Below, in pieces: positions 42,499-62,429 of a stretch of 64,000 nucleotides of DNA (positions are counted from its first letter, which is position 1; each line of letters starts with the position of its first letter). Position numbers and translations under genes: made by a program. The notes under the pieces were generated by a model that worked only from the letters and a program-made list of their open reading frames with translations, was not told where the DNA came from and made no database searches. Source of the stretch: Marchantia polymorpha subsp. ruderalis (lineage: Eukaryota > Streptophyta > Marchantiopsida > Marchantiales > Marchantiaceae); contig AP031358.1 in NCBI GenBank assembly GCA_037833965.1, forward strand, positions 22,204,001 through 22,268,000. Direction: 5' to 3'.

Positions 42499-43943
42499 GC
42501 AAACTGGTTCGAGAAGAGAATCTGATTTCCTACAGAGCATAGGAACCTGCCTACATTGTCAAGGTGAGGAACAAGCCCTGAGTACTAACCTGGATAAACT
42601 GACAGCGAGGGGTAGCGCGCACGTATGGAGATCAACAGTGAGGAATCCAGAATCCCACAGCTATGACTGCTATAAGCCAAACGTAGATATCTTATCATCG
42701 CCTCGTTCCGAGGAAGAATGCAAAAGATCTAAGATCATTCTGGCCCTGCACTCAGTCCCTATTCATCATGTACACATGCAGGTCCTCTGCTTACTACCTT
42801 CGGGTCTTAGAATTCCGAGCTCTTTGTAGTGTTCGTAGAAGCTGATTCGTTGTACCATACGCTGAATACATACAACCATCATTTGTTTGGTACCAACATG
42901 ACATTTCATTAAGCTCCAGTCCTATAGGTCTATGCCAGTTGAGATGATGTAAGGTTGCTGTATAATAATTTCAAATTCAGTTTAACCTCGCCCAGCTGTT
43001 GGATTGCCTTGGATCATTGAAGGGTTCGATTTCAAGTTTGGTGTCATTTCCATGTTCACCGTTGTTGATAATAGTCGCTGGTGTTGAAGTTCTCATATAC
43101 GTGAACGAAGTTAGCATGACATTCTGAGCTTAATTTTTTCCGTTTTTGGAATTGTTGCAAGAAAGTAATCATCCGAGCGTGTCAAGCACACGTGAAGAAT
43201 TATCTTTTTCTGCTACAACTGACTTTAGGCATGTGATGAATGGAAAGTCCACTAAAAAATACCGAAAAATGCAACAAAATTGAGCTTCTCCGAGAGCATA
43301 TTCTGTGAAGCTTCAGGACGCTCGTAGTGCACCAAACCGAGTAAAGTCATGAGTTGTTGCTTATAATCCAAATGTAAGCAGCCATGATTTGAGCAGACCA
43401 CTAGAATTGGTAAGCCTTCGATTAAAAAAGGCCGATTTGGAGGGCATCTTCTTGTCTACCGTTGTTGCAGCTCATCTTCTTATGTGTTCAGACATTGACT
43501 ATTTAGCACTAAAATAAACACGATGTCCAAGTTGATATCGACTCTTTGGGTTACAAATGATTTATCATGGATTATTTCAAGCACTTCTCTATTACTTGTG
43601 AACGGAACATGACATTGCACAAAGGACTCAAACACGATGCATGTGAGAATTTTGCTGATTTTGGAGAAGCAAATTATTGTAGTAGAAATTGCTGTCTTAA
43701 AGGTGACCACCCCGACGTCTAAAGTGAAGGGATTCCATTATGGTGGGTTTAGGGTTTAAACCTAAACCAAACACTGGGCTTCTGCAGAAACAAAACTGCG
43801 CAATTGACGTTTAATTCAAAGATTATAAAAGACTGCAACTGTTGAAAACTGTAAGGAATATCTTACAGAGTTGTGTATTGCATGAGGGTCTAAACATATG
43901 CTTGTCAACAATTGCAAAATGACATTCTAAACTTTTAAAATTC
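42499..43943. other. Convergent intergenic region between ALDH and ROCO genes
   Basis: The ALDH (+) and ROCO (-) genes converge here, so both 3' UTRs should lie in this stretch. No further gene is seen. A telobox-containing near-palindrome lies at 43746-43768, close to the ROCO stop codon. Confidence 0.55.
43746..43768. repeat. Inverted telobox near-palindrome
   Basis: GGTTTA, one extra G, the perfect palindrome GGTTTAAACC, then TAAACC. This brings two plant telomere-like motifs head to head. A similar structure occurs at 63178-63204. Confidence 0.7.
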
Positions 43944-46900
43944 CTAACATGTCAAAATGCCAGACCTAAGACCTTTATTCAGACACTCCTTGCACACCCA
44001 TGCATGCCCACCTAATTCTAGACTCAGGTATTTCACCTGATACAACTTGAAGATTGCCGAATAGCTATCTCGAAGCTGAGGCGCAAGAGTTTGCTGAATC
44101 CTCAACCATGCTTCTTTGAGCTCCATGCTTTTCCCACCTTGTAGAACTGCCCTATTGCCATCTAGATTAACAATATCATATTTTAAATCTACCCAGTCCG
44201 GAATGGCTTGGCCCAACCCCAGGGTCACATCTAGTCTAGCCATCACAACATAACGCATGACTTTGAGTGAAATTTCAATGATTTTGCTAATCCACGTGCG
44301 ATTATACATATCCACACGTATCTTCAAACCTTCTTGATCTTTGACGGGGTGAAATCCAGTCGCCGACTCACACATCAAGTGTAACAGAACAGTGTTCCCT
44401 AAATGCAGAACTGCACTCATCCTATAGAAAAGGCCAACCTCATTCGTAATGTAAGGTCGCTTGGGGGTTCTGGCCTGCTGAAACTCTTGAGAATAATCGA
44501 TCAACCTGTCCACTGTAGACATGAAATCACTCAGCGTTGACTGCAGTTCATGTTGTAGAGAAAGTGTCTGTTCCATCTTCATCTCCACTCTTTGCAAATT
44601 GCTCTGCAGAGATCTCATTCTCTCATCCACCCAATCAAACTTTTGTACTAGCTCTCCTTCTGTCTGACCGATCTTGAACAAAACAAGTTGTGTCGAACGA
44701 TTTTCCACACTTGTGCTCATCCGACTTAAAGAACTGGAGGAAGGTCGATTGGAGTCTTTCATATCAGAAAAATTTGAATTGGTTACCATGTTATCATTTT
44801 CAGGGTAAGAATAAATCAAATCATTGTTCAGTTCGATCAAACCTTGGTGCAAACCTTGGCGCAATGGCTCCAATTTTTGCATTTGCTTCTGTCGGATCTC
44901 ATTCACAACCGCCTCCACATCGCTCTCCCACAACAATTCCCTCGCTCTTTCGAATATAACCTCTGGTATGTGCCCTTGAATGAAGGGCCAAGAGTGCTCA
45001 TAGTCGAACAACCCTTCCTTCTTCTCCCAAAGCCACTCATCCAGCGAAATATCCTCAAGTTTTTCATTGATGCTATGAATGAACTTCGATTTGAGATCCT
45101 CTATAAGAATTGCCCCTCTCATATGATTCGGAATCAGCATCTTCACGCAGAGTGTTTGGATTACACCAAGCACTAACGCCACACCGGGACAACCTTTGGG
45201 TGATGCGCAAAATGATATCAACTCCTCGACGATATGGTTCATCACGTATTTTCGCGCCAACTCCCTTGACTTATGCTCAGAACATAACATGAGAACATCA
45301 ACATATTTGTGATTCCTTCCTTGCTGGACATAAATTTGATGTCCATCCAAGAAGAGTCGTAGATAATGTCGAGAGCAGATTACAGACTCCTTGGAAACTT
45401 CCATCTCGAAAATCAACTTGCGTCTCATGAACATCTACAATGATACAAAATTAGTGAATGTTTAAGTGGGACATTTGAATAATTTGAGAGATACAATAGC
45501 ATGGAAATATTCTATTGACTATACACAAATTACAATCGGAACTTGACGCATTCAATATTTTCACAGTGTTTATGAAATCATGATTCAATCTCACCTGGAA
45601 GCGTTGAAAAAAGGAATCAGTCAGTGACATTGTTTGTACATCTTCGCATTGAATCCGAATGCCGACAAACTGTGAAGTCTCAACCGTATTTTCCCAAGAC
45701 ATCTTCTGCGCCTGTTCCTCCATGCTTGCATGCTCAGGGATGAAGTAAGGAATGTAATACTGAGAAATATCTTCCAGCTTGAAACACAAATCTAAATTGA
45801 TAAGTATGTTTTCAAGCATCTCTTTATCCACACCTCTCCCTCCATGTGATTGCTTTCGCAGAACCTCATCTATCAACTGAGCAAATACCCTGTCACTCAC
45901 AAATCCGTCCTTGTTTGTGAATGAGCTCGTTTCATCAGAAGATTCTGTCTTTTGAGGTTGAAAGTGCTGACCTATAGCTATCAAATGACCCAAAATTGTA
46001 TTTGTGAGCCAGTTTGGATCTACAATGATGTAATTAACATTGGGAATGTATATGATAGATCCTACATCATTCAAATAAGATATGATTGATGTATTCATCC
46101 TAAAATGATCAACAGAGGAATGACAAATGACAAAATGATCAACAGAATCACAAAAGTCATGAAACTTTTTGGATGACCAAATAGGGCACTTTTTGCTATC
46201 CTTGGTTTTTGTAACTAAGAGGGATGTGAGTTCAGAACACAAATGGGGAACCAGTGGAGAATTTTCTGTCAATGACACCTCCAAGATGTCAAAAATGTGA
46301 TTTTTGACAGGAGAAACTTGCTTTTTTTTCCGAGCATCAACAAGAAACCATTCTTGGTTCAGCTTCACATATTTTGCAAATTTTTTGGCAACCTCATCCA
46401 CTATGGTATTAGCCCAAGTGAAAGATTCGTCTTTGAGTTTATCCTTGTGTGACATCACAACAAGAACTTGTGGAAGACTATGTCTGATGACTCTAGAGCT
46501 GGATGAGATGAAACACATACATTCTTCCAACTCTCTCAGAAAACAAGATTGTGGTTTGATGCTAGATGTTATCTCACAAAAGAGGCTATACACAAATAGA
46601 AAAATAGAAAAATTGTTGGTTTGAGGGAATAGCATAGTTGGAAGTGTGCGGAAAATTCCTTGTCCCGCAAAATCCCAAATTGAGATTTGCCTTGTCTCAT
46701 CATTTTGCAAGAACTCCTCTTTAATGCCCACAGATTTTCGCACTTTTCCACACATGTCCCGGAGCCAACTTTGGCCTTGAACTATACTCATCAAGGTTTG
46801 ACGCAATCTAGTCTTGCCTGCAAATTGAATAAAAATAATCACAATAAATACAACTTGTTACTTTACAAATGCTTTTAGTTTATCTTCTTCACGAAGTAAC

Positions 46901-49798
46901 GTGAAGAGATATTTGTTTCCAACAATTTCTAATTGTACCAAAAAGTTGACATTATCTAAATTTTATATCTTGAATCGGATTGTGGATGCTATTATATTCG
47001 TCCATATCCGTAGTATTTTTCAGAATATTATCAATATTTCTTGATCTAAACCTTATAACTTTAAGCTTAATTTTTTAGAAAAGTAAAACCTTGTTTGCAT
47101 AGATTGAGAAAAAGACTGAGAACTGACAGAGCACATTACCTGCTCTAGGAGAGCCGCACAAAAAGAGTCCACCAGCTTTCGCCTCTCCAAATGTTAAGTT
47201 TGCTTCTCTGAAGACACCCATGTAGCAGGCCCGGTTCTGGTTTTCCCGTAGGGCCTGTTGAATAAGCGCCTTCTTTCCGTCCTTTGCCCATACGGTTCGT
47301 GAGACATCTATTTGCTCGAGAGTCAAGTTCACTTGCAACATATCCATCAGTTCCCTGAACGCCTCGTCATCGAGTCCGGAATCAGACAAATCCAAGTGAG
47401 TAACACTTGTGTTCTCCCGTAAGCAACAAAGCAGGTACTTCCACACTCCCTTCAAAGTATCTCTGCTTTCAACAAATAATCTCAGTCTCTTCAGGACTGA
47501 GACTGAAGTTTCTCCAGGATTTCCATCCATGGGGACGATACCTTCCATTCTATCATGGTTGCAAGAACATCTAAAAAATAGAATCAAAGATTCTAGAGAT
47601 TTGATATTTCCGCGCAATACCCTACCCACAAAGTTGAGTGCTGGCATCAATGCATCGTAATCATTGAATGTGATTATCAGCTCCAGTGTGGGGACCTTGA
47701 CACCTGAGCTAGCAGCACACGCAAGCTCTTCTACTCCCTTCTTTGTGAAGGAATCTTTGTGATCCATGGAATGGATTACGCGAATCGTTCTTGCTGTAGC
47801 ATTCTCGCTTATGGCTTCGCCCAGTTGACGCCATTCCTCGAGACGCATGTCGATGGCGGCCAACGTCACTTCCTTCAAGTACGGGTTGGATCTCAGAAGT
47901 TCTCGTAAACAGTCTCCGAATCCAGACACGGAAATTAGATGAAGACATTCAATAGCTCGATTGCCATCATCTCCATCCAATGCCTTCAGCAAGAAGGCCG
48001 ACGCTTCGCCCTTCACCTCATTTAGAACCAATTTTTTCAAAGACCTTCTCTGGATCAAAGCATGCGACAGGGTTCTAGCGGCCTCCTCATCCATGTCGTA
48101 CATGCGGCCCCCTGAACCCCCTATTTCCAAAGTTTCTAATCGAGTAGCACTGCTGATCATGTCAGCAATATGCCTCACCGCACTCGAGTCCTCCCATGCA
48201 TTTCGTAGCTCAAAAGACTCGAGTTCACACTCGTCATTTCCTCGCAGTCCTGCTGCGAGATACAAGTAACATGTGGCACTCAATCTGCAATTGACTATTG
48301 TCAAATTTTTCACGCGAGAGGTCGACAAAATTCTCCCCAGCTCTAAACATAACCTCTCCACTTCATCACCGGATCTCCATCTCAATTCTCCAACTCTTAT
48401 CGCTCGTAGAACGGTGCTTCTCCTAAAACCTCTCAAAAGTATCTCCCACTCCCTAGCCGTCAACCTCGATATATCTCCGCCAAAATTTTTTTCTACAGCC
48501 AGAGAATGAAAGGTGTTGCAGCTGCCGATTGCCTCCAGCACTCGAAGGCGCACTTCCCCTCGCCACCCTACGTTCGTGGATAGCGATGCACGTTCCGGAA
48601 AAAAATCCTGAAAATCTGGTGAGATTAATGTGGGAAGCCACTGTAAAGGCTGGGCTTTGCCTTCCAGACGCTGTATAAGGTTCTGGACAGCAGAAGGAAG
48701 CTCCGGTTCCTCGTCTGCCGGGTCCAGTCCCCTAGTCGCAAGTTCAGCAGCATCATCAGTGACGTTTGATTGTGACACACCTGCAGCTTTGATTGTCTGC
48801 TCCCTTGTCAGATAGGAAGAACTTTTGCCTCGCGGCCTCTTGTCCACTTTAGAATTGAAAGCACTCAGCATTGCTGCAGTCAACTCTGAGTGCTTTCTCC
48901 GCAATTCTTGCTGCAGCAGATACTCTCTCTGCAGAGAGAGTATCTGAACCATCTTCATCTCCATCATCTCCAATCTCTGCAGAGAGAGTGTCTCTCCAAT
49001 CTTCATCTCCATCATTTCCAAACTCTGCATCTCCATATCCAGAATCTGTATCTCCAATCTGAGAACAATTCGGGTCGAACGATTTTCCACACTTATGCTT
49101 TCCTGACTCAACCACTTGGATGTAGATGGTTTGTAGTCTTTCATTTCGAGGATATTCGAGTCGCTTATCGTATTCTCACCTTCAGGGTTCGATTGAGCCA
49201 AATCATTGTCCAGGCTATTTGGATCTTCTTGCAATGATTCGAACTTTTGAATTTGTTTCTGTCGAATGCAATCCACAACCGCTTCCACATCGCTCAGCCA
49301 CAACAAATCCCTAGCTCGTTCGGATATTCCGCCTTCTTGGTTTTCATACCGGGGCCAACGGTGCTCATAGTTGAACAACTCTTCCTTCTTCACCAAGTGA
49401 GAACTTTCCAACATCATTTCTTCAAGTTTGTCATTGATGCTACAAATGAAGTCCGATTTCAGCTTCTCGATCAGAATTGCCCTAAAATGACTCGGATTCA
49501 GCATCTCCACGCAAAGTGTTTGGATTACACCAAGCACTAACGCCACACCGGGACAGCCTTTGGGTGATGCGCAAAATGATATCAACTCCTCGACGATATG
49601 CTTCATCACATATTTCTGCGCCAGCTCCCTCGACTTATGCTTTGAGCATAACATAAGAACATCAACATATTCGTGGTTCCTTCCTTGCTGGACATAAATT
49701 TGGTGTCCATCCAAGAAGAGTCGCAGATAATGGCGAGAGCAGATTACAGACTCCTTGGAAACTTCCATCTCGGAAATCAATTTGCGTCTCATGAACAT
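43944..49798 (-). CDS. ROCO protein, downstream unit: C-terminal exon fused to LRR-Roc-COR (TORNADO1-like)
   Basis: Exons on the minus strand: 49798-47140, 46817-45595, 45434-43944, in frame, 1,790 aa from the ATG at the exon edge. Residues 1 to about 340 repeat the post-COR segment of the upstream unit and run straight into an RI-like LRR domain (about 340-880). Walker A GSPRAGKT (882-889) is split by the first intron. The Roc domain keeps G3 (WDFAGQ) and a SHKDK G4-like motif. COR follows (IIYIPNVNYIIVDPNWL, YYIPYFIPEH), then a last 496-aa exon with a coiled coil and a conserved C-terminal domain ending near HAWVCKEC. LRR-Roc-COR plus that tail is about 1,450 aa, near plant TRN1 size. The LRR has CTG where the upstream copy has its first ATG, so this unit lacks its own start. 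Frame stays open 5' through 50495-49956, whose donor joins the exon at 49798 in phase. It may be part of a longer gene. Confidence 0.72.
48917..48946. repeat. 30-bp perfect palindrome, copy 1 of 3
   Basis: A perfect palindrome centred on a PstI-like CTGCAG with arms starting CAGATACTCTCTCTG. The same sequence recurs at 50322-50351 and 50620-50649 within the duplicated coding exon. Confidence 0.93.
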
Positions 49799-49955
49799 CT
49801 ACAATGATAAATAATTAGTGAAATGTTCGTGGGACATTCCAATAATTTGAAAGAATTGATGGAATGGAAACATTCTAATCATCACATGCAAATTACAATT
49901 AGAACTTGACACATCCAATATCTTCAGTGTATATGAAATCATGATTCAAACTCAC

Positions 49956-50162
49956 CTGGAAGCGTAGAAAAAAAATAGCAGTAAGTGACATTCTTCTTTC
50001 ATCTTGACATTGAATCCGAATGCCGACAAATTGTGAATTCTCATCCTTATTGTACCAATACATCGACTTGTGACCCCTTTCTTCATGCTTATGCTCCTCC
50101 ATGCTTGCACGCTTAGAGTCTAAGGAAGGAATGATATACCGAGAAGGATCTTCACCATCTTC
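49956..50162 (-). pseudogene. Detached COR-tail exon piece between the ROCO units
   Basis: This is the duplicated 3' end of the upstream unit's Roc-COR exon (encoding SQFVGIRIQCQDERRMSL...RFQ), now lacking the Roc domain. It keeps the donor at 49956/49955 and remains in phase with the exon beginning at 49798. To its 5' side the frame continues open into the second 298-bp repeat up to 50495. It may be a real internal exon of a fused gene or a relic of the duplication. Confidence 0.55.
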
Positions 50163-50253
50163 TTCACACCTGCAGATGGACACACCTGCAGCTTTGATTG
50201 TCTGCTCCCTTGTCAGATAGGAAGAACTTTTGCCTCGCGGCCTCTTGTCCACT

Positions 50254-53200
50254 TTAGAATTGAAAGCACTCAGCATTGCTGCAGTCAACTCTGAGTGCTT
50301 TCTCCGCAATTCTTGCTGCAGCAGATACTCTCTCTGCAGAGAGAGTATCTGAACCATCTTCATCTCCATCATCTCCAATCTCTGCAGAGAGAGTGTCTCT
50401 CCAATCTTCATCTCCATCATTTCCAAACTCTGCATCTCCATATCCAGAATCTGTATCTCCAATCTGAGAACAATTCGGGTCGAACGATTTTCCACACTTA
50501 TGCTCCCTTGTCAGATAGGAAGAACTTTTGCCTCGCGGCCTCTTGTCCACTTTAGAATTGAAAGCACTCAGCATTGCTGCAGTCAACTCTGAGTGCTTTC
50601 TCCGCAATTCTTGCTGCAGCAGATACTCTCTCTGCAGAGAGAGTATCTGAACCATCTTCATCTCCATCATCTCCAATCTCTGCAGAGAGAGTGTCTCTCC
50701 AATCTTCATCTCCATCATTTCCAAACTCTGCATCTCCATATCCAGAATCTGTATCTCCAATCTGAGAACAATTCGGGTCGAACGATTTTCCACACTTATG
50801 CTTTCCTGACTCAACCACTTGGATGTAGATGGTTTGTAGTCTTTCATTTCGAGGATATTCGAGTCGCTTATCGTATTCTCACCTTCAGGGTTCGATTGAG
50901 CCAAATCATTGTCCAGGCTATTTGGATCTTCTTGCAATGATTCGAACTTTTGAATTTGTTTCTGTCGAATGCAATCCACAACCGCTTCCACATCGCTCAG
51001 CCACAACAAATCCCTAGCTCGTTCGGATATTCCGCCTTCTTGGTTTTCATACCGGGGCCAACGGTGCTCATAGTTGAACAACTCTTCCTTCTTCACCAAG
51101 TGAGAACTTTCCAACATCATTTCTTCAAGTTTGTCATTGATGCTACAAATGAAGTCCGATTTCAGCTTCTCGATCAGAATTGCCCTAAAATGACTCGGAT
51201 TCAGCATCTCCACGCAAAGTGTTTGGATTACACCAAGCACTAACGCCACACCGGGACAGCCTTTGGGTGATGCGCAAAATGATATCAACTCCTCGACGAT
51301 ATGCTTCATCACATATTTCTGCGCCAGCTCCCTCGACTTATGCTTTGAGCATAACATAAGAACATCAACATATTCGTGGTTCCTTCCTTGCTGGACATAA
51401 ATTTGGTGTCCATCCAAGAAGAGTCGCAGATAATGGCGAGAGCAGATTACAGACTCCTTGGAAACTTCCATCTCGGAAATCAATTTGCGTCTCATGAACA
51501 TCTACAATGATAAATAATTAGTGAAATGTTCGTGGGACATTCCAATAATTTGAAAGAATTGATGGAATGGAAACATTCTAATCATCACATGCAAATTACA
51601 ATTAGAACTTGACACATCCAATATCTTCAGTGTATATGAAATCATGATTCAAACTCACCTGGAAGCGTAGAAAAAAAATAGCAGTAAGTGACATTCTTCT
51701 TTCATCTTGACATTGAATCCGAATGCCGACAAATTGTGAATTCTCATCCTTATTGTACCAATACATCGACTTGTGACCCCTTTCTTCATGCTTATGCTCC
51801 TCCATGCTTGCACGCTTAGAGTCTAAGGAAGGAATGATATACCGAGAAGGATCTTCACCATCTTCTTCACAAGAAGAAGAAGATGGAGAAAATGAAGACT
51901 CATGTTCTTCATCTTCTTTTTCATTTTCTCCATCTTCATCAATTCCATCTCCTTCTCCATCTTTTCCATCTTCTTCTTCAGCTTCTCCATCTTCATCTTT
52001 TCTATCTTCTTCTTCATCTTTTCCATCTCTTTCTCCATCTTTTCCATCTTCTTCATCTCCTTCTTCATCTTTTCCATCTCCTTCTCCATATTTTCCATCT
52101 TCTTCTCCATCTTTTCCATCTTCTTCATCTCCTTCTCCATATTTTCCATCTTCTTCTCCATCTTTTCCATCTTCTTCATCTCCTTCTTCATCTTTTCCAT
52201 CTCCTTCTCCATATTTTCCATCTTCTTCTTCATCTTTTCCATCTTCTTCTATCTCCATCTTCATCTTTTCCATCTCCTTTTCCATCTTCTTCATCTTTTC
52301 CATCTCCTTTTCCATCTTCTTCATCTCCTTCTTCATCTTTTTCATCTTTTTCTTCATCTTTTCTATCTCCTTCTCCATCTTCTTTTCCACTCCTTCTCCA
52401 TCTTTTCCATCTTCTTCTTCATCTTTTCTATCTCCTTCTCCATCTTCTTTTTCATCTTTCCTATATTCTTTTTCATCTTTTCTATCTCCTTCTCTATCTT
52501 CTTCTTCATCTTTTCTATCTATTTCTCCATCTTTTCTATCTCCTTCTCTATCTTCTTCTTCATCTTTTCTATCTACTTCTCCATCTTTTCTATCTCCTTC
52601 TTCATCTTCTTTTTCATCTTTTCTATCTCCTTCTCCATCTTTTACATCATCTTGTACATCTTGACATTGAATCCGAATGCTGACCAACTGTGAGGTATCA
52701 TCTATATTTTGCGAATACGTCGATTCGTGTGCCCGCCCTTGAAGCCTTTGTTTCTCCGTGCTTGGATGCTCAGGTATGAAGAAAGGAATGTAATACTCAA
52801 AAGTATCTTCGTGCTTGAAACACAAATCTAAATTGAAAAGTATGTTTTCAAGCATCTCTCTGTCCACACCTCTCTGTCCATGTGGTTGTTTTCGTAGAAA
52901 CTTCTCTGTCCACCCAACAAAGTCACTCTCACTCACATATCCGTCCTTACTTGTGTAAGAGCTCGTTTCATCAAAAGATTCAAACTTTTGAGCTTGAAAG
53001 TGTTGACCCAAATCACCTAACAATGTATGTGCGAGCCAGTTGGGATCCACAATAATGTACTTGACGTTGGGGATGTATATGATGGATCCAACATCATTCA
53101 TATAAGATATGATTGATGTAATTATACTTGAATGATCAACAGAGGAAGTAGATGATGTAGGAATGAAATGTTTCAAGTGGGAATCACAAAAGTCATGAAA

Positions 53201-55770
53201 CTTTTTTAGTGACCAAATAGGGCACTTTTTGCTATCCTTGGTTTTTGTAACTAAAAGGGATGTGAGTTTGGAACACAAATGGGGAACCAGTGGAGAATTT
53301 TTTGTCAATAACACCTTCAAGATGTCAAAAATGTGTTTTTGGACAGGAAGAACTTGCTTCTTTTTCCGAGCATCCACATGAAACAACTCTTGGTTGAGCT
53401 TCACATCATTTGCAAAGTTTTTGATAACCTCGTCCACTATGGTATTAGCCCAAGTTAAAGATTTGTCTTTGACTTTATCCTTGTGTGACATCACAACAAG
53501 AACTTGTGGAAGACTATGTCTAGTGACTCTACTGTTGGATGTGATGAACTTCATCCATTTTTCCAACTCTGTCTGAAAAGAAAATTCAGGTTTGATACTA
53601 GATGTTTTCTCACAAAAGGGGCTATACACAAATTGAAAAACACAAAAATTGGAGGTTTGAGGAAAGATCACATGTTCAAGGGTAACAAAATCCCAAATTG
53701 AGATTTGCATTCTCTCATCCTTTTGCAATAACTCCCCTTCAATGCGTAGAGTTCTTAGCACTTTTCCGAGCATGTCCCGGAGCCGACTTTGGCCTTGAAC
53801 TATCCTCATCAAAGTTTGACGCAATCTAGTCTTGCCTACAAATTGAAGGAAAAAAATAACAACAAATACACCTTGTTACTTAAGATATCTTTACAAATGC
53901 TTTCACATAATGTTAATTAAGAAACCCTATGATGAGATATTTGTTTCCAAAAATGTCTTCTTTCACAAGAAAGTTGAAACTATCTAAACGTTCTATCTTG
54001 AATCACATTCTGTATAGTTTATATATTTCCCTTTCTGTGATTTTTTTCAAAAAAATTTCAATATGTATCCATCAAAACCTAAACTTTATAAGTTTATAAC
54101 TAATTTTAGAAAGTAAAACATTTGATTGCTAGTTTTCAAACATTGAGAAAAAGAAATGAGAACTGACAGAGCACCTTACCTGCTCTAGGAGAGCCGCACA
54201 AAAAGAGTCCACCAGCTTTCGCCTCTCCAAATGTTAAGTTTGCTTCTCTGAAGACACCCATGTAGCAGGCCCGATTCTGGTTTTCCCGTAGGGCGTGTTG
54301 AATAAGCGCCTTCTTTCCGTCCTTTGCCCATGCGGTTCGTGAGACATCTATTTGCTCGAGAGTCAAGTTCACTTGCAACATATCCATCAGTTCCCTGAAC
54401 GCCTCGTCATCGAGTCCGGAATCAGACAAATCCAAGTGAGTAACACTTGTGTTCTCCCGTAAGCAACAAAGCAGGTACTTCCACACTCCCTTCAAAGTAT
54501 CTCTGCTTTCAACAAATAATCTCAGTCTCTTCAGGACTGAGACTGAAGTTTCTCCAGGATTTCCATCCATGGGGACGATACCTTCCATTATATCATGGTT
54601 GCAAGAACATCTAAAAAATAGAATCAAAGATTCTAGAGATTTGATATTTCCGCGCAATACCCCCCTACCCACAAAGTCGAGTGCTGGCATCAATGCATCG
54701 TAATCATTGAATGTGATTATCAGCTCCAGTGTGGGGACCTTGACACCTGAGCTAGCAGCACACGCAAGCTCTTCTACTCCCTTCTTTGTGAAGGAATCTT
54801 TGTGATCCATGGAATGGATTACGCGAATCGTTCTTGCTGTAGCATTCTCACTTATGGCTTCGCCCAGTTGACGCCATTCCTCGAGACGCATGTCGATGGC
54901 GGCCAACGTCACTTCCTTCAAGTACGGGTTGGATCTCAGAAGTTCTCGTAAACAGTCTCCGAATCCAGACACGGAAATTAGATGAAGACATTCAATAGCT
55001 CGATTGCCATCATCTCCATCCAATGCCTTCAGCAAGAAGGCCGACGCTTCGCCCTTCACCTCATTTAGAACCAATTTTTTCAAAGACCTTCTCTGGATCA
55101 AAGCCTGCGACAGGGTTCTAGCGGCATCCTCATCCATGTCGTACATGCGGCCCCCTGAACCCCCTATTTCCAAAGTTTCTAATCGAGTAGCACTGCTGAT
55201 CATGTCAGCCATATGCCTCACCGCACTCGAGTCCTCCCATGCATTTCGTAGCTCAAAAGACTCGAGTTCACACTCGTCATTTCCTCGCAGTCCTGATGCG
55301 AGATTCAAGTAACATGTGGCACTCAATCTGCAATTGACTATTGTCAAATTTTTCACGCGAGAGGTCGACAAAATTCTCCCCAGCTCTAAACATAACCTCT
55401 CCACTTCATCACCGGATCTCCATCTCAATTCTCCAACTCTTATCGCTCGTAGAACGGTGCTTCTCCTAAAACCTCTCAAAAGTATCTCCCACTCCCTAGC
55501 CGTCAACCTCGATATATCTCCTCCAAAAATAATTTTTGTGTCCAGAGAATGAAAGGTGTTGCAACTGCCGATTGCCTCCAGCACTCGAAGGCGCACTTCC
55601 CCTCGCCACCCTATGTTCGTGGAGGGCGATGCATGTTCCGGAAAAAAATACTGAAAATCTGGCAAGGCTAATATGGGAAGCCACCGTAAAGGCTCGCCTT
55701 CTCCTTCCAGACGCCGTATAAGGTCCTTGACAGCGGAAGGAAGCCCCGGTTCCTCGTCTGCCGGGTCCAT
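50254..55770 (-). CDS. ROCO protein, upstream unit: LRR-Roc-COR with acidic repeat tract (TORNADO1-like)
   Basis: Exons on the minus strand: 55770-54180, 53835-51659, 51501-50254, 1,671 aa from the first in-frame ATG (GMDPADEEPG). LRR domain of ribonuclease-inhibitor type: residues 1 to about 520. Walker A GSPRAGKT (526-533) is split by intron 1, as in the downstream unit. The Roc domain has SHKDK, but G3 is lost: the downstream unit's WDFAGQGIFRTLPTM is WDFVTLEHV here. COR follows (IIYIPNVKYIIVDPNWL, YYIPFFIPEH), then a roughly 260-residue Asp/Glu/Lys/Gly/Met tract. A 298-bp duplication shifts the last exon's frame, so the protein ends at 50254 without the family C-terminal domain. The frame is open 5' of the ATG to an acceptor-like TGTAG (exon would begin 55883), and those residues (RPRKRYCCWTREQTIEAAGVS region) resemble the fused segment before the other LRR, so a 5' exon is probably missing. 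GTP hydrolysis is doubtful. Confidence 0.66.
50322..50351. repeat. 30-bp perfect palindrome, copy 2 of 3
   Basis: Identical to the palindrome at 48917-48946, in the second unit of the 298-bp tandem duplication. Confidence 0.93.
50501..51870 (-). repeat. Direct duplication, copy 1 (spacing 1,703 bp)
   Basis: Partner of 48798-50167. It lies in its natural context, directly downstream (minus strand) of the acidic-repeat part of the Roc-COR exon. Exon, intron and splice sites are all duplicated. Confidence 0.92.
50620..50649. repeat. 30-bp perfect palindrome, copy 3 of 3
   Basis: Identical to the palindromes at 48917 and 50322, in the first unit (minus-strand order) of the 298-bp tandem duplication. 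Confidence 0.93.
51866..52650 (-). repeat. Purine-rich coding expansion in the ROCO gene
   Basis: About 785 bases of GAAGAT/GGAGAA-type units on the coding (minus) strand encode roughly 260 residues of Asp, Glu, Lys, Gly and Met inside the Roc-COR exon. The reading alternates between an acidic KDGEGD phase and a charged helical MEKEMEKM phase within one uninterrupted frame. On the opposite strand all three frames are open for most of the tract. It lies between two copies of the COR-tail motif (SQLVSIRIQCQD and SQFVGIRIQCQD). The downstream ROCO unit has no such tract. Confidence 0.9.
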
Positions 55771-55967
55771 TCCCCTAGTCGCAAGTTCAGCAGCGTCACT
55801 GACGATGGACACACCGGCAGCTTCAATTGTCTGCTCCCTTGTCCAACAGCAATAACGTTTGCGCGGCCGAAATGTGAACGCGGCTACAGGAGACCCTCTC
55901 CTAGATCAGTAGGCTCACACGAGGAGAACTAAACTTTAACTCGTGTCACAACTCAGTGCATGTGCGT

Positions 55968-58900
55968 GCTGGGCATGAGAATTCTTGCGTGGTTCAAGAG
56001 TAGCCACCCATAGAAAATTCGAAGCACTGCAGAGCAATAATCAGAAAAGCAGTGAGATTGAGCATAGTGTAATCTGGAGGCAGATCGAACTCAGCGGAGG
56101 TTACGAATAGCGATGTCAATCAAAATAAAGCAAAGCAAAGCAGAGAAGTACTATCCTTGTTACAAGGGAAATCTTAGACCGTTGTGCAAAGAGAGAGGTG
56201 TTTGATTTTCACTTGGTTACCTTACTGAGTGGACAAGCTCATAGCTCTGCAGATGAATCTGAAATCCATGAAATTTCTTCTTGCTGGGAATGAGAATCCT
56301 TGCGTGATTCAAGAGTAGCCACCCATAGAAAATTCGAAGCACTGCAGAGCAATAATCAGAAAAGCAGTGAGATTGAGCATAGTGTAATCTGGAGGCAGAT
56401 CGAACTCAGCGGAGGTTACGAATAGCGATATCAATCAAAATAAAGCAAAGCAAAGCAGAGAAGTAGTATCCTTGTTAAAAGGGAAATCTTAGACCGTTGT
56501 GCAAAGAGAGAGGTGTTTGATTTTCACTTGGTTACCTTACTGAGTGGACAAGCTCATAGCTCTGCAGATGAATCTGAAATCCATAAAATTTCTTCTTGCT
56601 GGGAATGAGAATCCTTGCGTGATTCAAGAGTAGCCACCCATAGAAAATTCGAAGCACTGCAGAGCAATAATCAGAAAAGCAGTGAGATTGAGCATAGTGT
56701 AATCTGGAGGCAGATCTAACTCAGCGGAGGTTACGAATAGCGATATCAATCAAAATAAAGCAAAGCAAAGCAGAGAAGTAGTATCCTTGTTACAAGAGAA
56801 ATCTTAGACCGTGTGCAAAGAGAGAAGTGTTTGATTTTCACTTGGTTACCTTACTGAGTGGACAAGCTCATAGCTCTGCAGATGAATCTGAAATCCATAA
56901 AATTTCTTCTTGCTGGGAATGAGAATCCTTGCGTGATTCAAGAGTAGCCACCCATAGAAAATTCGAAGCACTGCACAGCAATAATCAGAAAAGCAGTGAG
57001 ATTGAGCATAGTGTAATCTGGAGGCAGATCGAACTCAGCGGAGGTTACGAATAGCGATATCAATCAAAATAAAGCAAAGCAAAGCAGAGAAGTAGTATCC
57101 TTGTTACAAGAGAAATCTTAGACCGTGTGCAAAGAGAGAGGTGTTTGATTTTCACTTGGTTACCTTACTGAGTGGACAAGCTCATAGCTCTGCAGATGAA
57201 TCTGAAATCCATGAAATTTCTTCGTGCTGGGCATGAGAATCCTTGCGTGGTTCAAGAGTAGCAACCCATAGAGTACTCCAAGCTCTGCACATAATCGTAT
57301 CCAGAGCAATAATCAGGAAAGCAGTAAGATTGTGCATAGTGTAATCTGGAGGCAGATCGAACTCAGCGGAGGTTACGAATAGCGATGTCAATCAAAATAA
57401 AGCAAAGCAAAGCAGAGAAGTAGTATCCTTGTTACAAGAGAAATCTTAGACCGTGTGCAAAGAGAGAGGTGTTTGATTTTCACTTGGTTACCTTACTGAG
57501 TGGACAAGCTCATAGCTCTGCAGATGAATCTGAAATCCATGAAATTTCTTCGTGCTGGGCATGAGAATCCTTGCGTGGTTCAAGAGTAGCAACTCATAGA
57601 GTACTCCAAGCTCTGCACATAATCGTATCCAGAGCAATAATCAGGAAAGCAGTAAGATTGTGCATAGTGTAATCTGGAGGCAGATCGAACTCAGCGGAGG
57701 TTACGAATAGCGATGTCAATCAAAATAAAGCAAAGCAAAGCAGAGAAGTAGTATCCTTGTTAAAAGGGAAATCTTAGACCGTGTGCAAAGAGAGAAGTGT
57801 TTGATTTTCACTTGGTTACCTTACTGAGTGGACAAGCTCATAGCTCTGCAGATGAATCTGAAATCCATAAAATTTCTTCTTGCTGGGAATGAGAATCCTT
57901 GCGTGATTCAAGAGTAGCCACCCATAGAAAATTCGAAGCACTGCAGAGCAATAATCAGAAAAGCAGTGAGATTGAGCATAGTGTAATCTGGAGGCAGATC
58001 GAACTCAGCGGAGGTTACGAATAGCGATATCAATCAAAATAAAGCAAAGCAAAGCAGAGAAGTAGTATCCTTGTTACAAGAGAAATCTTAGACCGTGTGC
58101 AAAGAGAGAGGTGTTTGATTTTCACTTGGTTACCTTACTGAGTGGACAAGCTCATAGCTCTGCAGATGAATCTGAAATCCATGAAATTTCTTCGTGCTGG
58201 GCATGAGAATCCTTGCGTGGTTCAAGAGTAGCAACCCATAGAGTACTCCAAGCTCTGCACATAATCGTATCCAGAGCAATAATCAGGAAAGCAGTAAGAT
58301 TGTGCATAGTGTAATCTGGAGGCAGATCGAACTCAGCGGAGGGTGCGAATAGCGATGTCAATCAAAATAAAGCAAAGCAAAGCAGAGAAGTAGTATCCTT
58401 GTTACAAGAGAAATCTTAGACCGTGTGCAAAGAGAGAGGTGTTTGATTTTCACTTGGTTACCTTACTGAGTGGACAAGCTCATAGCTCTGCAGATGAATC
58501 TGAAATCCATGAAATTTCTTCGTGCTGGGCATGAGAATCCTTGCGTGGTTCAAGAGTAGCCACCCATAGAGTACTCCAAGCTCTGCACATAATCGTATCC
58601 AGAGCAATAATCAGGAAAGCAGTAAGATTGTGCATAGTGTAATCTGGAGGCAGATCGAACTCAGCGGAGGTTACGAATAGCGATGTCAATCAAAATAAAG
58701 CAAAGCAAAGCAGAGAAGTAGTATCCTTGTTACAAGAGAAATCTTAGACCGTGTGCAAAGAGAGAGGTGTTTGATTTTCACTTGGTTACCTTACTGAGTG
58801 GACAAGCTCATAGCTCTGCAAATGAATCTGAAATCCATGAAATTTCTTGGTGCTGGGCATGAGAATCCTTGCGTGGTTCAAGAGTAGCCACCCATAGAGT

Positions 58901-59500
58901 ACTCCAAGCTCTGCACATAATCGTATCCAGAGCAATAATCAGGAAAGCAGTAAGATTGTGCATAGTGTAATCTGGAGGCAGATTGAACTCAGCGGAGGTT
59001 ACGAATAGCGATGTCAATGAAAATAAAGCAAAGCAAAGCAGAGAAGTAGTATCCTTGTTACAAGAGAAATCTTAGACCGTGTGCAAAGAGAGAGGTGTTT
59101 TGATTTTCACTTGGTTACCTTACTGAGTGGACAAGCTCATAGCTCTGCAAATGAATCTGAAATCCATGAAATTTCTTGGTGCTGGGCATGAGAATCCTTG
59201 CGTGGTTCAAGAGTAGCCACCCATAGAGTACTCCAAGCTCTGCACATAATCGTATCCAGAGCAATAATCAGGAAAGCAGTAAGATTGTGCATAGTGTAAT
59301 CTGGAGGCAGATCGAACTCAGCGGAGGTTACGAATAGCGATGTCAATCAAAATAAAGCAAAGCAAAGCAGAGAAGTAGTATCCTGGTTACAAAGGAAATC
59401 TTAGACCGTGTGCAAAGAGAGAGGTGTTTGATTATCACTTGGTTTCCTTGTCGAGTGGACAAGCTGAGAGCTCTGTTGATGAATCTGAAATCCAAAAGAC
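55968..59500. repeat. Satellite array, about 11 copies of a 314/328-bp unit
   Basis: A marker GCTGGG(A/C)ATG recurs at 55968, 56283, 56598, 56912, 57226, 57554, 57882, 58196, 58524, 58852 and 59181. Two monomer types alternate: short (314-315 bp) and long (328-329 bp), differing by a 14-base insertion (ATAATCGTATCCAG) and scattered substitutions. The order from the left is S S S S L L S L L L L. Long units hold a 69-codon minus-strand frame beginning with TTG directly after a stop (first ATG at codon 20). It is broken by a TGA in one long unit and by frame loss in short units, so I do not call it a gene. The array abuts the 5' side of the ROCO cluster. Confidence 0.95.
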
Positions 59501-62429
59501 TGGTTGGTAGGAAAGATGGTCTAATGTGGAAGCAGAATTTCGGGTATTGCATGGAAGCGAAGATTTTTTAAAATGTGAAGCTTTGAGTAGTGTAAAACTG
59601 CATGTACAATCGGACTGGAAGACCGTGACGAATTAAGCTGTATCAAGACCCCCGGGAGACAGACCCTACGATGAGTAGGGCGTGGAAAAAACATGCACCG
59701 TCTTTAATCAGATATTCTGGTTGAATCGCGTGAGCGGTCGAGGTAACGTCAACATGCCAAAACAACAAGCGTGATCTTCTATAGTCGGTGGGATTGGAAA
59801 TTGGTCTACGTGGGCAAATGCATCAGTGTGCTCATACACTCTTGTCGTCACGCTGGAAGCAGAGATTTCAAGTTCATTTTCAAAGAATACTTTTTCCTGG
59901 AACATTTGATCTATTCCAGCAAGTGGATGTATTCTGACAAATGAGAGGCACATGGGTAGTCAGCTCGGCGGACAAAGCCTGTCGTGCTTTGTTCTTGTTT
60001 TGAAGAACGTTAAAGTACGCTACATAACTCTAACGCTGATAACAAACTGATGAACTTTTTGGAGTTTACTAAACTTGATGTTAACATAAGAACATGATGT
60101 ACAGAATATACGAGTACTGTACTCGAGGTTCTAAACTCCTGTTATGATTGTTCTTCTAGCTCAACTGTCAAGCATGCACAGTCTTGATGAGGTCTTTCGA
60201 CGTCAAACATTAATATGAATCAGATTTTGTCCGTGCTAAAAGCAATCCTGCTTATTTTTCACATCGTATAAAGCAGGATAGAAACAATATTATACTTGGT
60301 AAGGTCAACGTCAATCCTCAAAGAAGTTAGAGTTTTCGAACTAAACTTGCAAGAGAAGAAAAACTGTGTTGTACACCTAATTTTAAAAAAACTTCATGCC
60401 ATAAATGTTAGATAACAATGAGTCATGACTTGAAATGAAGATCTCGCTTAATATCTGAAAGACAAGACTAGTTTACATGGAAATTCAAATATTTGGTATA
60501 TTTTCTGAAATGAAACAAGTCATACTGCAAATTTGGCACCAGTATGCTCTAATCCAAAAATGTCAAATGAGAAATTTAAAGAACAATCTATATAGATAAA
60601 ATTTTTTAAAAGTAAACTATCTTTTCTATGTGTAAATCATATCCACATCTATTTTTTATTTTATAACAATTGAAACTGTGAGTAAATACCTTTCTATTAG
60701 ATGTGTAGTATGATTTGCATCTTTATTGGATTTTACATCAAATGTCAAAATGTAAGACATAAACAAGCTTGTATAATTTTTTTTCCGAAGGAATTATTCA
60801 ATGGAAGGGAAAGTTTGTCATTTCTCATTCAATTCTTCATTGAATTAAAGATTTTGACTCTACAAATCTTTGTCTCTTATAGTTTTGAAAAGCATTTGGC
60901 CTTAGGATTCTTGGACTCTTTTATTTGGGTGCATCATCAAGAATAATTAAACTAAGTTATTCTTTGATGATGTATGCAACTCAGGTGATGAGATAAATCG
61001 GTGGATGTTTAAGAATTTATTACTAAAGTTCAAACAAAGATATTATCATAGCTTCATCAGTAATTCTTTTAGACGTATTTTAATAAAACTACACACATCA
61101 AAAACTCTTGTTTCATTTTTCATTCAAGTTAAATTTACATGAAAAGATAAAACGTTAATGAAAAAATCAATGGATAACTTTTAATAATGACCTAATTCCG
61201 AATTTCTTCCTCATTCAGGTTCGAAACGAATATTAGAACAAAATACGTGATCTGGAAAGATCACAAGCAGCTTTGGTAGGAACTGACAATGTACTAGACA
61301 CGATATTTTTTTCTTCTTTTTTTCATGTTACTTGGTTTGGTTGTTGTGTATTTACAACATTGGTACTGCCCAAAGTTCTTCAATTTTGCAAGTGCCATTT
61401 AATGTACTTGTAGAATAATTTGATGAAAACTGTTGCGAAATGTTGCGATTGATTCACGATTATTGCATTTACAAGGTTGGTTGAAATTCTCATTGGATGG
61501 TTTACTAGGAATATATTTTGATACTCTGAGTATTGTCTTACACTCACTTTAATGACACCAGTACATTCGTACATTGACTTTTAGTATATATTATTTTAGC
61601 AAACGCAAAACACTATTCCTTGATATTGAACGCTTCACAAATTATTATATATCCTAGAATTTGTCCAGATGCAACCGGAAATCGTTAAGTATGTTAATTC
61701 TCAATTCACTCCACGGGAGAAAGTGAAGATGTTGGGCTCTCAAATTTTGAAGCTTTTTGTGGGACCTTAGCTGACAAGTTCAACGCAAAGGACAATGTAT
61801 ATTGTTTCACTTCCGGCATGTATAGACTTTAGATCTTTATATACTTTAGATATACACTCTAGATCTTTTTTATGGAACCTCAATGGAAAAGAACAATGAT
61901 TCCACTGCAGAGTCCATCAGAGTCATGCCACAGCTTTCTCTGTATTATTGTTTAACAACCTCAAAGTCTGAGACTCCAACATTACAACCCTCAAAGTCAT
62001 CCGCCCGGCGAAAGCAGGGGGAATGACTGGATCGCATTCGTTCGTTTTGAGTCATGACCATTGGAAGAAATGAAACTCAAGAGCATTATGTCAACACCCA
62101 TTATTAAGCATATATGTATTATTCATGCAATCTGACCTCGAAAGACAGCCTGTGCATAAGTTGAAAAAGTTGTTTTCCCTCCAACCCTAGTTCAGCTGAG
62201 TTGAATATTTTAGCCCTGTGAAGCTTCGTTCTTGCTTGCGCTTCTTGACTCCACCTTTTACCGACAAGAGTGACGTTAAATCTAGAATAAGGTATATACC
62301 CTGTCATGATTCCTCACTCTGTCCACAGGCAGTGACTCGGACGTGATGAAGCTGAAGTTACGTAGTTTGTTCTGAAATAAATGCAACTCTTACGCAGTCG
62401 CACCATTTTTCTAGACCATGATGGCCTAC
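59501..62429. other. No gene recognised
   Basis: AT-rich between about 60.0 and 61.7 kb. The longest frames are near 81 codons (59708-59953 on the minus strand; 60701-60946 on the plus strand) and have no recognisable domain. The minus-strand frame lies upstream of the ROCO cluster and could be tested as a lost 5' exon, but nothing in the sequence links them. Confidence 0.5.

Follow-up and report, generated by a model that had tools for sequence, protein, structure and literature searches.

The ROCO class of proteins includes LRRK2, known from Parkinson's disease. The closest described systems are summarized here from excerpts of three papers. Plant Tornado proteins consist of leucine-rich repeats (LRRs) followed by ROC-COR, and ROCO genes were found solely in flowering plants among the green algae, ferns, gymnosperms and angiosperms surveyed (PMC4104024), while elsewhere plants are said to have one or two ROCO genes (PMC11378527). 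Brown algae carry LRR-ROCO families of 31, 9, 22 and 47 genes in four species, with a stated total of 111 (PMC11378527). Roco proteins dimerise mainly via the C-terminal half of COR, with switch II contacting COR, and it is debated whether they are permanently dimeric or alternate between a monomeric and a dimeric state (PMC6337361). In the literature on ROCO proteins that we found, including the excerpts of PMC6337361, PMC4104024 and PMC11378527, there is no account of a single chain that contains two Roc domains, which does not prove that none exists. We have analyzed a 64,000-nucleotide stretch of the Marchantia polymorpha subsp. ruderalis genome (the window; contig AP031358.1, positions 22,204,001 to 22,268,000, on C9 in our numbering of contigs), in which two LRR-Roc-COR units stand in one reading frame. 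From the sequence we consider it probable that they form one gene, LRR1-Roc1-COR1-postCOR1'-LRR2-Roc2-COR2-postCOR2, with five exons, one upstream region and one stop, which was fused by tandem duplication, was then copied between C9 and C3 and likely encodes a covalent pseudo-dimer.

The double frame in the window and on contig C3

The two units lie head to tail on the minus strand, from 55.9 to 43.9 kb, as an earlier note on this sequence had described, and each is made of an LRR, a Roc-COR and a post-COR part. The parts of the gene model are as follows.

54180..55770, minus strand: exon 1, LRR1, beginning with the putative start codon, ATG (GMDPADEE), and ending after half of the P-loop (GSPRAG); upstream, the frame stays open as far as 55905
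51659..53835, minus strand: exon 2, Roc1-COR1; an acidic/Lys-rich repeat is inserted at 51900-52662, and G3/switch II is missing
49956..51501, minus strand: extra exon of 1546 nt, in which the post-COR frame stops at 50254
47140..49798, minus strand: exon 3, the fusion exon, a truncated post-COR1 in frame into LRR2, ending with the first half of P-loop 2
48725..48846, minus strand: fusion point and linker, with the join at about 48840, and GLDPADEE with CTG at 48727-48725
45595..46817, minus strand: exon 4, Roc2-COR2, with an intact P-loop (across the intron) and G3 (WDFAGQ)
43944..45434, minus strand: exon 5, a complete post-COR2 with the C-terminal domain that unit 1 misses, and the terminal stop

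When the donor at 51659 is joined to the acceptor at 49798, skipping the extra exon, the five exons give a single frame of 3091 codons with one terminal stop (counted from the upstream stop; about 3046 codons from the putative ATG, counted on the printed translation), and GT-AG is present at all four junctions used. Copies of the post-COR exon begin at 51501, 49798 and 45434. The second of these reads directly into LRR2 within an open frame of 907 codons (49798-47075), just as first noticed. At the base level, the join near 48840 passes from post-COR1 coding sequence to the leader/N-terminal part of an LRR exon, a part alignable with the 5' end of unit 1. In both units the P-loop (GSPRAG, then KT) is interrupted by the LRR/Roc intron, and unit 1 is without the last ~170 residues of the post-COR part. 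The insertion at 51900-52662 in COR1 is an acidic/Lys-rich coding minisatellite, and a similar stretch is found in COR1 on C3. For three further open frames in the window (258-331 codons), Pfam gave nothing up to E 0.01.

When the genome was searched with the 907-residue protein, C3:5674350-5682500 emerged, where the layout is identical. This paralogous locus (C3:5671377-5682539) has the same fusion with the same breakpoint and no frameshift, and its spliced frame is open for 3430 codons (counted from the upstream stop; the next codon after the model is a stop). Its fusion exon, 7-12% divergent from that of the window, is open for 1308 codons across the join, and the linker within it holds nine copies of a ~52-residue unit, counted by eye in the printed translation. 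At the nucleotide level, the linker has grown to about nine in-frame units of ~156 bp within the coding exon (C3 ~5675990-5677350). Similarity between the two loci extends past the gene on both sides (88.8% over window positions 57552-61349 and 92.5% over 43269-44097); the loci are therefore segmental copies. A search with the junction as query gave 154 matches (the best 150 of 257 candidates were scored). Among the rows listed from these, four extend to query residue 1, of which three belong to the window and one to C3, and the count of two fused loci holds for the rows listed.

Since the C3 locus has the same fusion and breakpoint, the double ROCO thus appears to be an established gene present twice, in the window on C9 and on C3, rather than an intermediate. 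The earlier note had placed the units on the way to fusion. We reject this, because the fused state is older than the split of the C9 and C3 loci, and the 298-bp frameshift described below arose later in the window copy only, unless it is an assembly error. Independent fusions at the two loci were likewise rejected, given the common breakpoint, G3 loss and flanks.

The two copies are not equally similar throughout. Intron 3, Roc2-COR2, intron 4 and post-COR2 show just 73-78% identity, while the sequences flanking this block, LRR2 and the 3' flank, are 88% and 94% identical. In trees, the four LRRs of both units and both loci form one clade apart from 25 other rows, with support of 94/99, slightly under the starred level of the tool. 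Roc1 of both loci and Roc2 of the window also form one clade (100/100), and Roc2-COR2 of C3 joins four single-unit loci (L014-L017; 98/96) at C9:5.9-6.4 Mb. In this tree the Roc1 rows are shorter than the others, and C3 Roc1 is flagged as a long branch.

Roc motifs and the ROCO family of the genome

The family profile aligns (probability 99.1, E 7.5e-19) across Roc and COR with a canonical ROCO of this genome, one in which both Roc and COR-A exceed the Pfam cut-offs. The domains of the window score lower: Roc2, taken with its P-loop, reaches 26.5 bits, narrowly under the Pfam Roc cut-off of 27, and Roc1 15.4, the cut-off being passed by five of the six paralogous exons scanned. COR-A stays under its cut-off of 35.3 in COR2 (24.8-25), in COR1 (14.3-18.1) and in all six paralogous exons, yet these sub-threshold matches are correctly placed after Roc. 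Genome-wide, four rows with family-like frames do pass for COR-A, jointly with neighbours in frame, and unit 2 of C3 scores 32.8. The N-terminal LRR matches LRR_6 with 13.9-15.1 bits, under the cut-off of 23.4. Taken together, the profile alignment and the Pfam scores thus class these proteins as divergent ROCO proteins.

Searches against solved structures returned only small GTPases for Roc2-COR2 alone (E of at least 0.13) and no match up to E 1 for post-COR2. With a 13-row profile, the top match was the leucine-rich-repeat protein 4wnr, which we take to be an archaeal Roco (whole-chain E 0.0015, with no single stretch passing), and the rest were small GTPases. In NCBIfam, Roc2-COR2 and post-COR2 had no match, and one paralogue matched small_GTP weakly, at 12.5 bits.

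At both loci Roc1 has kept the P-loop and is missing G3/switch II: WDFVTLE stands in place of WDFAGQG, that is, WDxxGQ has become WDFVT, with six residues lost relative to unit 2 of the window. Roc2 has both P-loop and G3 at both loci. Among 30 fetched single-unit loci, which include two pairs that are the same gene, the G3 pattern is present in 27; it is lacking in one degenerate locus and in two loci without a Roc-COR match. The Roc of unit 1 is thus a probable pseudo-GTPase. The prediction of two Roc GTPase domains with one shared C-terminal domain is upheld as regards the double coding structure and the shared domain and has to be amended for Roc1.

The genome contains at least 91 Roc-COR exon rows and at least 90 post-COR rows, window included, on eight of nine contigs; both are lower bounds, as the best 91 of 350 candidates and the best 86 of 396 candidates, respectively, were scored. 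Clusters are located at C5:16.8-18.0 Mb and C9:18.4-18.8 Mb. The genome also has 14 NAM-domain matches, where 14 prokaryotic controls have none, in line with a land plant. Two family members (L020, C9:6325290, and L021, C4:28805491) represent a GTPase-less form, in which an LRR continues in one frame into the C-terminal domain of the post-COR part, and the fetched stretch has no match to Roc-COR. At C5:17848464-17849819 and similar places on C5, single frames of ~900-930 codons have two LRR N-terminal matches, suggesting that the LRR may have been duplicated inside one exon in other family members.

Coding constraint, local duplications and the start of unit 2

Neutral simulation of the window-C3 pair predicted 7.9 stops in LRR1, 15.9 in Roc-COR1 (a value inflated by its repeat, and to that extent too favourable), 3.1 in post-COR1 and 8.7 in LRR2, about 36 altogether; none was seen in either copy. 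Internal indels of the LRRs are multiples of three in all cases, 4/4 in LRR1 (omitting one 185-nt end offset caused by unequal segment starts) and 7/7 in LRR2, 11/11 together, whereas most indels in introns and flanks are not. Between the window and C3, dN/dS is 0.45 (0.28-0.71) for post-COR1 and 0.83 (0.62-1.12) for LRR2; for the replaced part, where the comparison is between paralogues, it is 0.43 and 0.46. LRR exons are 12-13% divergent as against 6-11% for introns 1 and 2 and the flanks, with introns 3 and 4 (replaced part, 22-25% divergent) excluded. The pooled Fisher p of 3.7e-9 rests on back-calculated denominators and on non-independent sites, and part of the difference could stem from conversion by paralogues. 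Sliding windows with pN > pS number 4/7 in LRR1 (all in the first 320 codons), 2/7 in LRR2 and 0/4 in post-COR1. Positive selection on the LRRs is suggested rather than shown, as no dN/dS confidence interval lies above 1. We read these data as pointing to constraint to stay open combined with diversification of the LRRs, rather than to decay.

Several further points, together with the Pfam scores given above, weigh against a single constrained double gene. dN/dS is 0.95 (0.76-1.24) for RocCOR1 and 1.19 (0.87-1.67) for LRR1, which alone would fit relaxed constraint, and post-COR1 as a whole (7%) is no less divergent than introns and flanks (p 0.44). In nucleotide alignments, gaps that are not multiples of three make up 18/40 in Roc-COR1, 5/8 in post-COR1, 8/13 in Roc-COR2 and 15/20 in post-COR2; we take them as alignment noise in repetitive or diverged sequence, because both frames stay open. 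The Roc2-COR2-post-COR2 part of C3 groups with single-unit genes at C9:5.9-6.4 Mb, which means that unit 1 has a different partner at each locus, ATG codons remain in the linker repeats of unit 2 on C3, and all loci compared come from one genome. Finally, the window copy holds a frameshifted exon, whose skipping is needed for the open frame. This exon results from two local duplications.

48798..51871, no strand assigned: 1405-bp tandem duplication region spanning the COR1 end, intron, post-COR1 and linker; 48798-50168 is identical to 50501-51871
50203..50802, no strand assigned: 298-bp perfect tandem duplication in two copies; 50203-50504 is identical to 50501-50802

The 298-bp duplication sits within the first copy of the 1405-bp duplication, giving a period of 1703 (1405 + 298), and 48774-49099 is also identical to 50179-50504. 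Together they contribute the one exon at 51501-49956, in frame +1, the length of which (1546 nt) is not a multiple of three, whereas 1546 minus 298 is. Read with this exon, unit 1 ends at the 50254 stop. Its piece 50495-49956 would indeed splice in phase to the next exon, as proposed earlier, the 49956 donor and the 49798 acceptor both being phase 0. The accompanying idea that the 298-bp frameshift is all that prevents a single frame holds insofar as it does shift this exon; exon skipping, however, would already give 3091 codons, and the C3 copy is open. With the duplicated stretches 100% identical, the two duplications appear to be either very recent or an assembly error. Extending such an error to the fusion itself is far-fetched: the identity of the repeats would fit mis-assembly, but the fusion recurs on C3 with the same breakpoint and several percent of divergence, which is hardly one error, and if the artefact is confined to the two small duplications, the window gene without them is simply open.

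The same exon, the low-complexity insertion in COR1, the G3 loss in Roc1 and dN/dS near 1 for LRR1 and RocCOR1 would also suit a decaying pseudogene pair, that is, an unused chimaera from unequal exchange within a fast-evolving ROCO family. We consider such decay quite unlikely. Stops and frameshifts do not accumulate at the neutral rate apart from this exon, LRR indels keep the frame, C3 is fully open, the upper bound of dN/dS for post-COR1 is 0.71, and the greater divergence of LRR exons than of introns 1-2 and flanks is unlike neutral decay, although conversion from paralogues could produce it.

The reading of one gene also depends on where transcription and translation of unit 2 begin. Unit 1 is preceded by a repeat array.

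55965..59494, minus strand: upstream of unit 1, a 328-bp unit repeated 11 times in tandem, each copy carrying a ~80-bp element that recurs in the genome

The ~80-bp element has 76 matches in the genome, a number in which single places can count more than once through neighbouring pieces: 12 belong to the window array, where all lie at 55967-59497, seven to that of C3 and 57 to other parts of the genome. With up to three mismatches allowed, a pattern for the core occurs 11 times in the window, always within 56227-59476. By eye, the element lies ~400 bp upstream of an LRR exon at C7:22422525, C7:22348703 and C5:17309396. The 328-bp unit is matched in 20 of the 30 fetched single-unit loci (16 matches overlap the core, two of them across just 26 bases), six of the 30 (L040-L045) being cut around the Roc exon so that the upstream region is not reached. 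The element is a putative promoter or 5' leader. At C3:5682617-5684510 there are ~6 copies of the 328-bp unit compared with 11 in the window, a copy-number amplification of this putative promoter/leader. A methionine block (GMDSADEE and variants), the putative start, matches in 20 of the 24 paralogous loci extending this far. In unit 2 the corresponding codon reads CTG in the window and ATG on C3. Bacterial-type promoter and terminator scans of 47-52 kb gave results near chance, which are uninformative for a plant.

If the units were two separate neighbouring genes, unit 1 would stop at 50254, where it does end when read with the extra exon, and unit 2 would be expressed from a cryptic promoter inside the post-COR1 copy; the ATG codons kept in the C3 linker agree with this. 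An ordinary tandem pair has an upstream region, a start and a complete C-terminus for each unit. Here, no match to the family upstream element was found between unit 1 and unit 2 in the window or at the C3 locus, and unit 1 lacks a separate C-terminal domain. In the window, CTG stands in place of the usual Met of unit 2, with the next in-frame Met ~190 residues downstream (by eye), though the usual Met is present on C3, and the C3 exon is open over the join. We therefore regard two genes as improbable and favor one double gene.

Proposed history and working of the double gene, and comparison with known systems

For this double gene, the most economical order appears to be a tandem duplication within the gene, followed by segmental copying and finally by replacement of Roc2-post-COR2 on C3. 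An ancestral LRR-Roc-COR gene would have been duplicated in tandem; the first copy would have been broken near the end of its post-COR exon, and this exon would have become continuous, in frame, with the leader/N-terminus in the second copy's LRR exon. The whole double gene would then have been copied between C9 and C3, with the Roc2-post-COR2 part replaced afterwards in C3. The window copy would later have gained the 1405-bp and 298-bp duplications, and with them the frameshifted exon, which is presumably skipped for the open frame.

As to working, both units would be transcribed as one mRNA, and COR1 and COR2 could pair in cis, within one chain. Roc1, with the P-loop kept and switch II lost, might still bind nucleotide but not switch, and might keep Roc2 in a single state, acting as its non-hydrolysing structural or regulatory partner. 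LRR1 and LRR2 could provide two changing ligand surfaces, making the protein a two-headed sensor with the shared C-terminal domain as output, if it is a receptor. In its fullest form this proposal is tentative and, in our opinion, rather doubtful: a covalent ROCO heterodimer in one polypeptide of ~3000-3400 residues, with two LRR sensors under diversifying selection, a pseudo-GTPase Roc1, a working Roc2 and the shared C-terminal domain, within about ninety or more ROCO loci acting as receptors comparable to NLRs.

TORNADO1-type plant LRR-Roc-COR proteins have the same module order as found here, and the Roc-COR is homologous to that of a canonical ROCO of the same genome, a possible TORNADO1 orthologue. 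Unlike in the TORNADO1 type, the family is very large, the LRR, Roc-COR and post-COR parts are split by exon, the P-loop lies across an intron and there are two units per gene. This points to a very large and changing ROCO family in a land plant, in contrast to the published accounts of one or two genes or of flowering plants only. Brown-algal LRR-ROCO genes are, as here, multi-copy with diversifying LRRs, and were proposed as candidate immune receptors; they diversify by shuffling of LRR exons, whereas here whole units are fused (PMC11378527). If the reading is true, two fused units, one of them without switch II, would amount to a natural tethered-dimer experiment in which each half is separately mutable. 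C. tepidum RocCOR similarly has two Roc-COR modules paired, acting together mainly through the C-terminal COR half (PMC6337361). That dimer, however, consists of two separate identical chains, whereas here two non-identical units, one without G3, share one frame.
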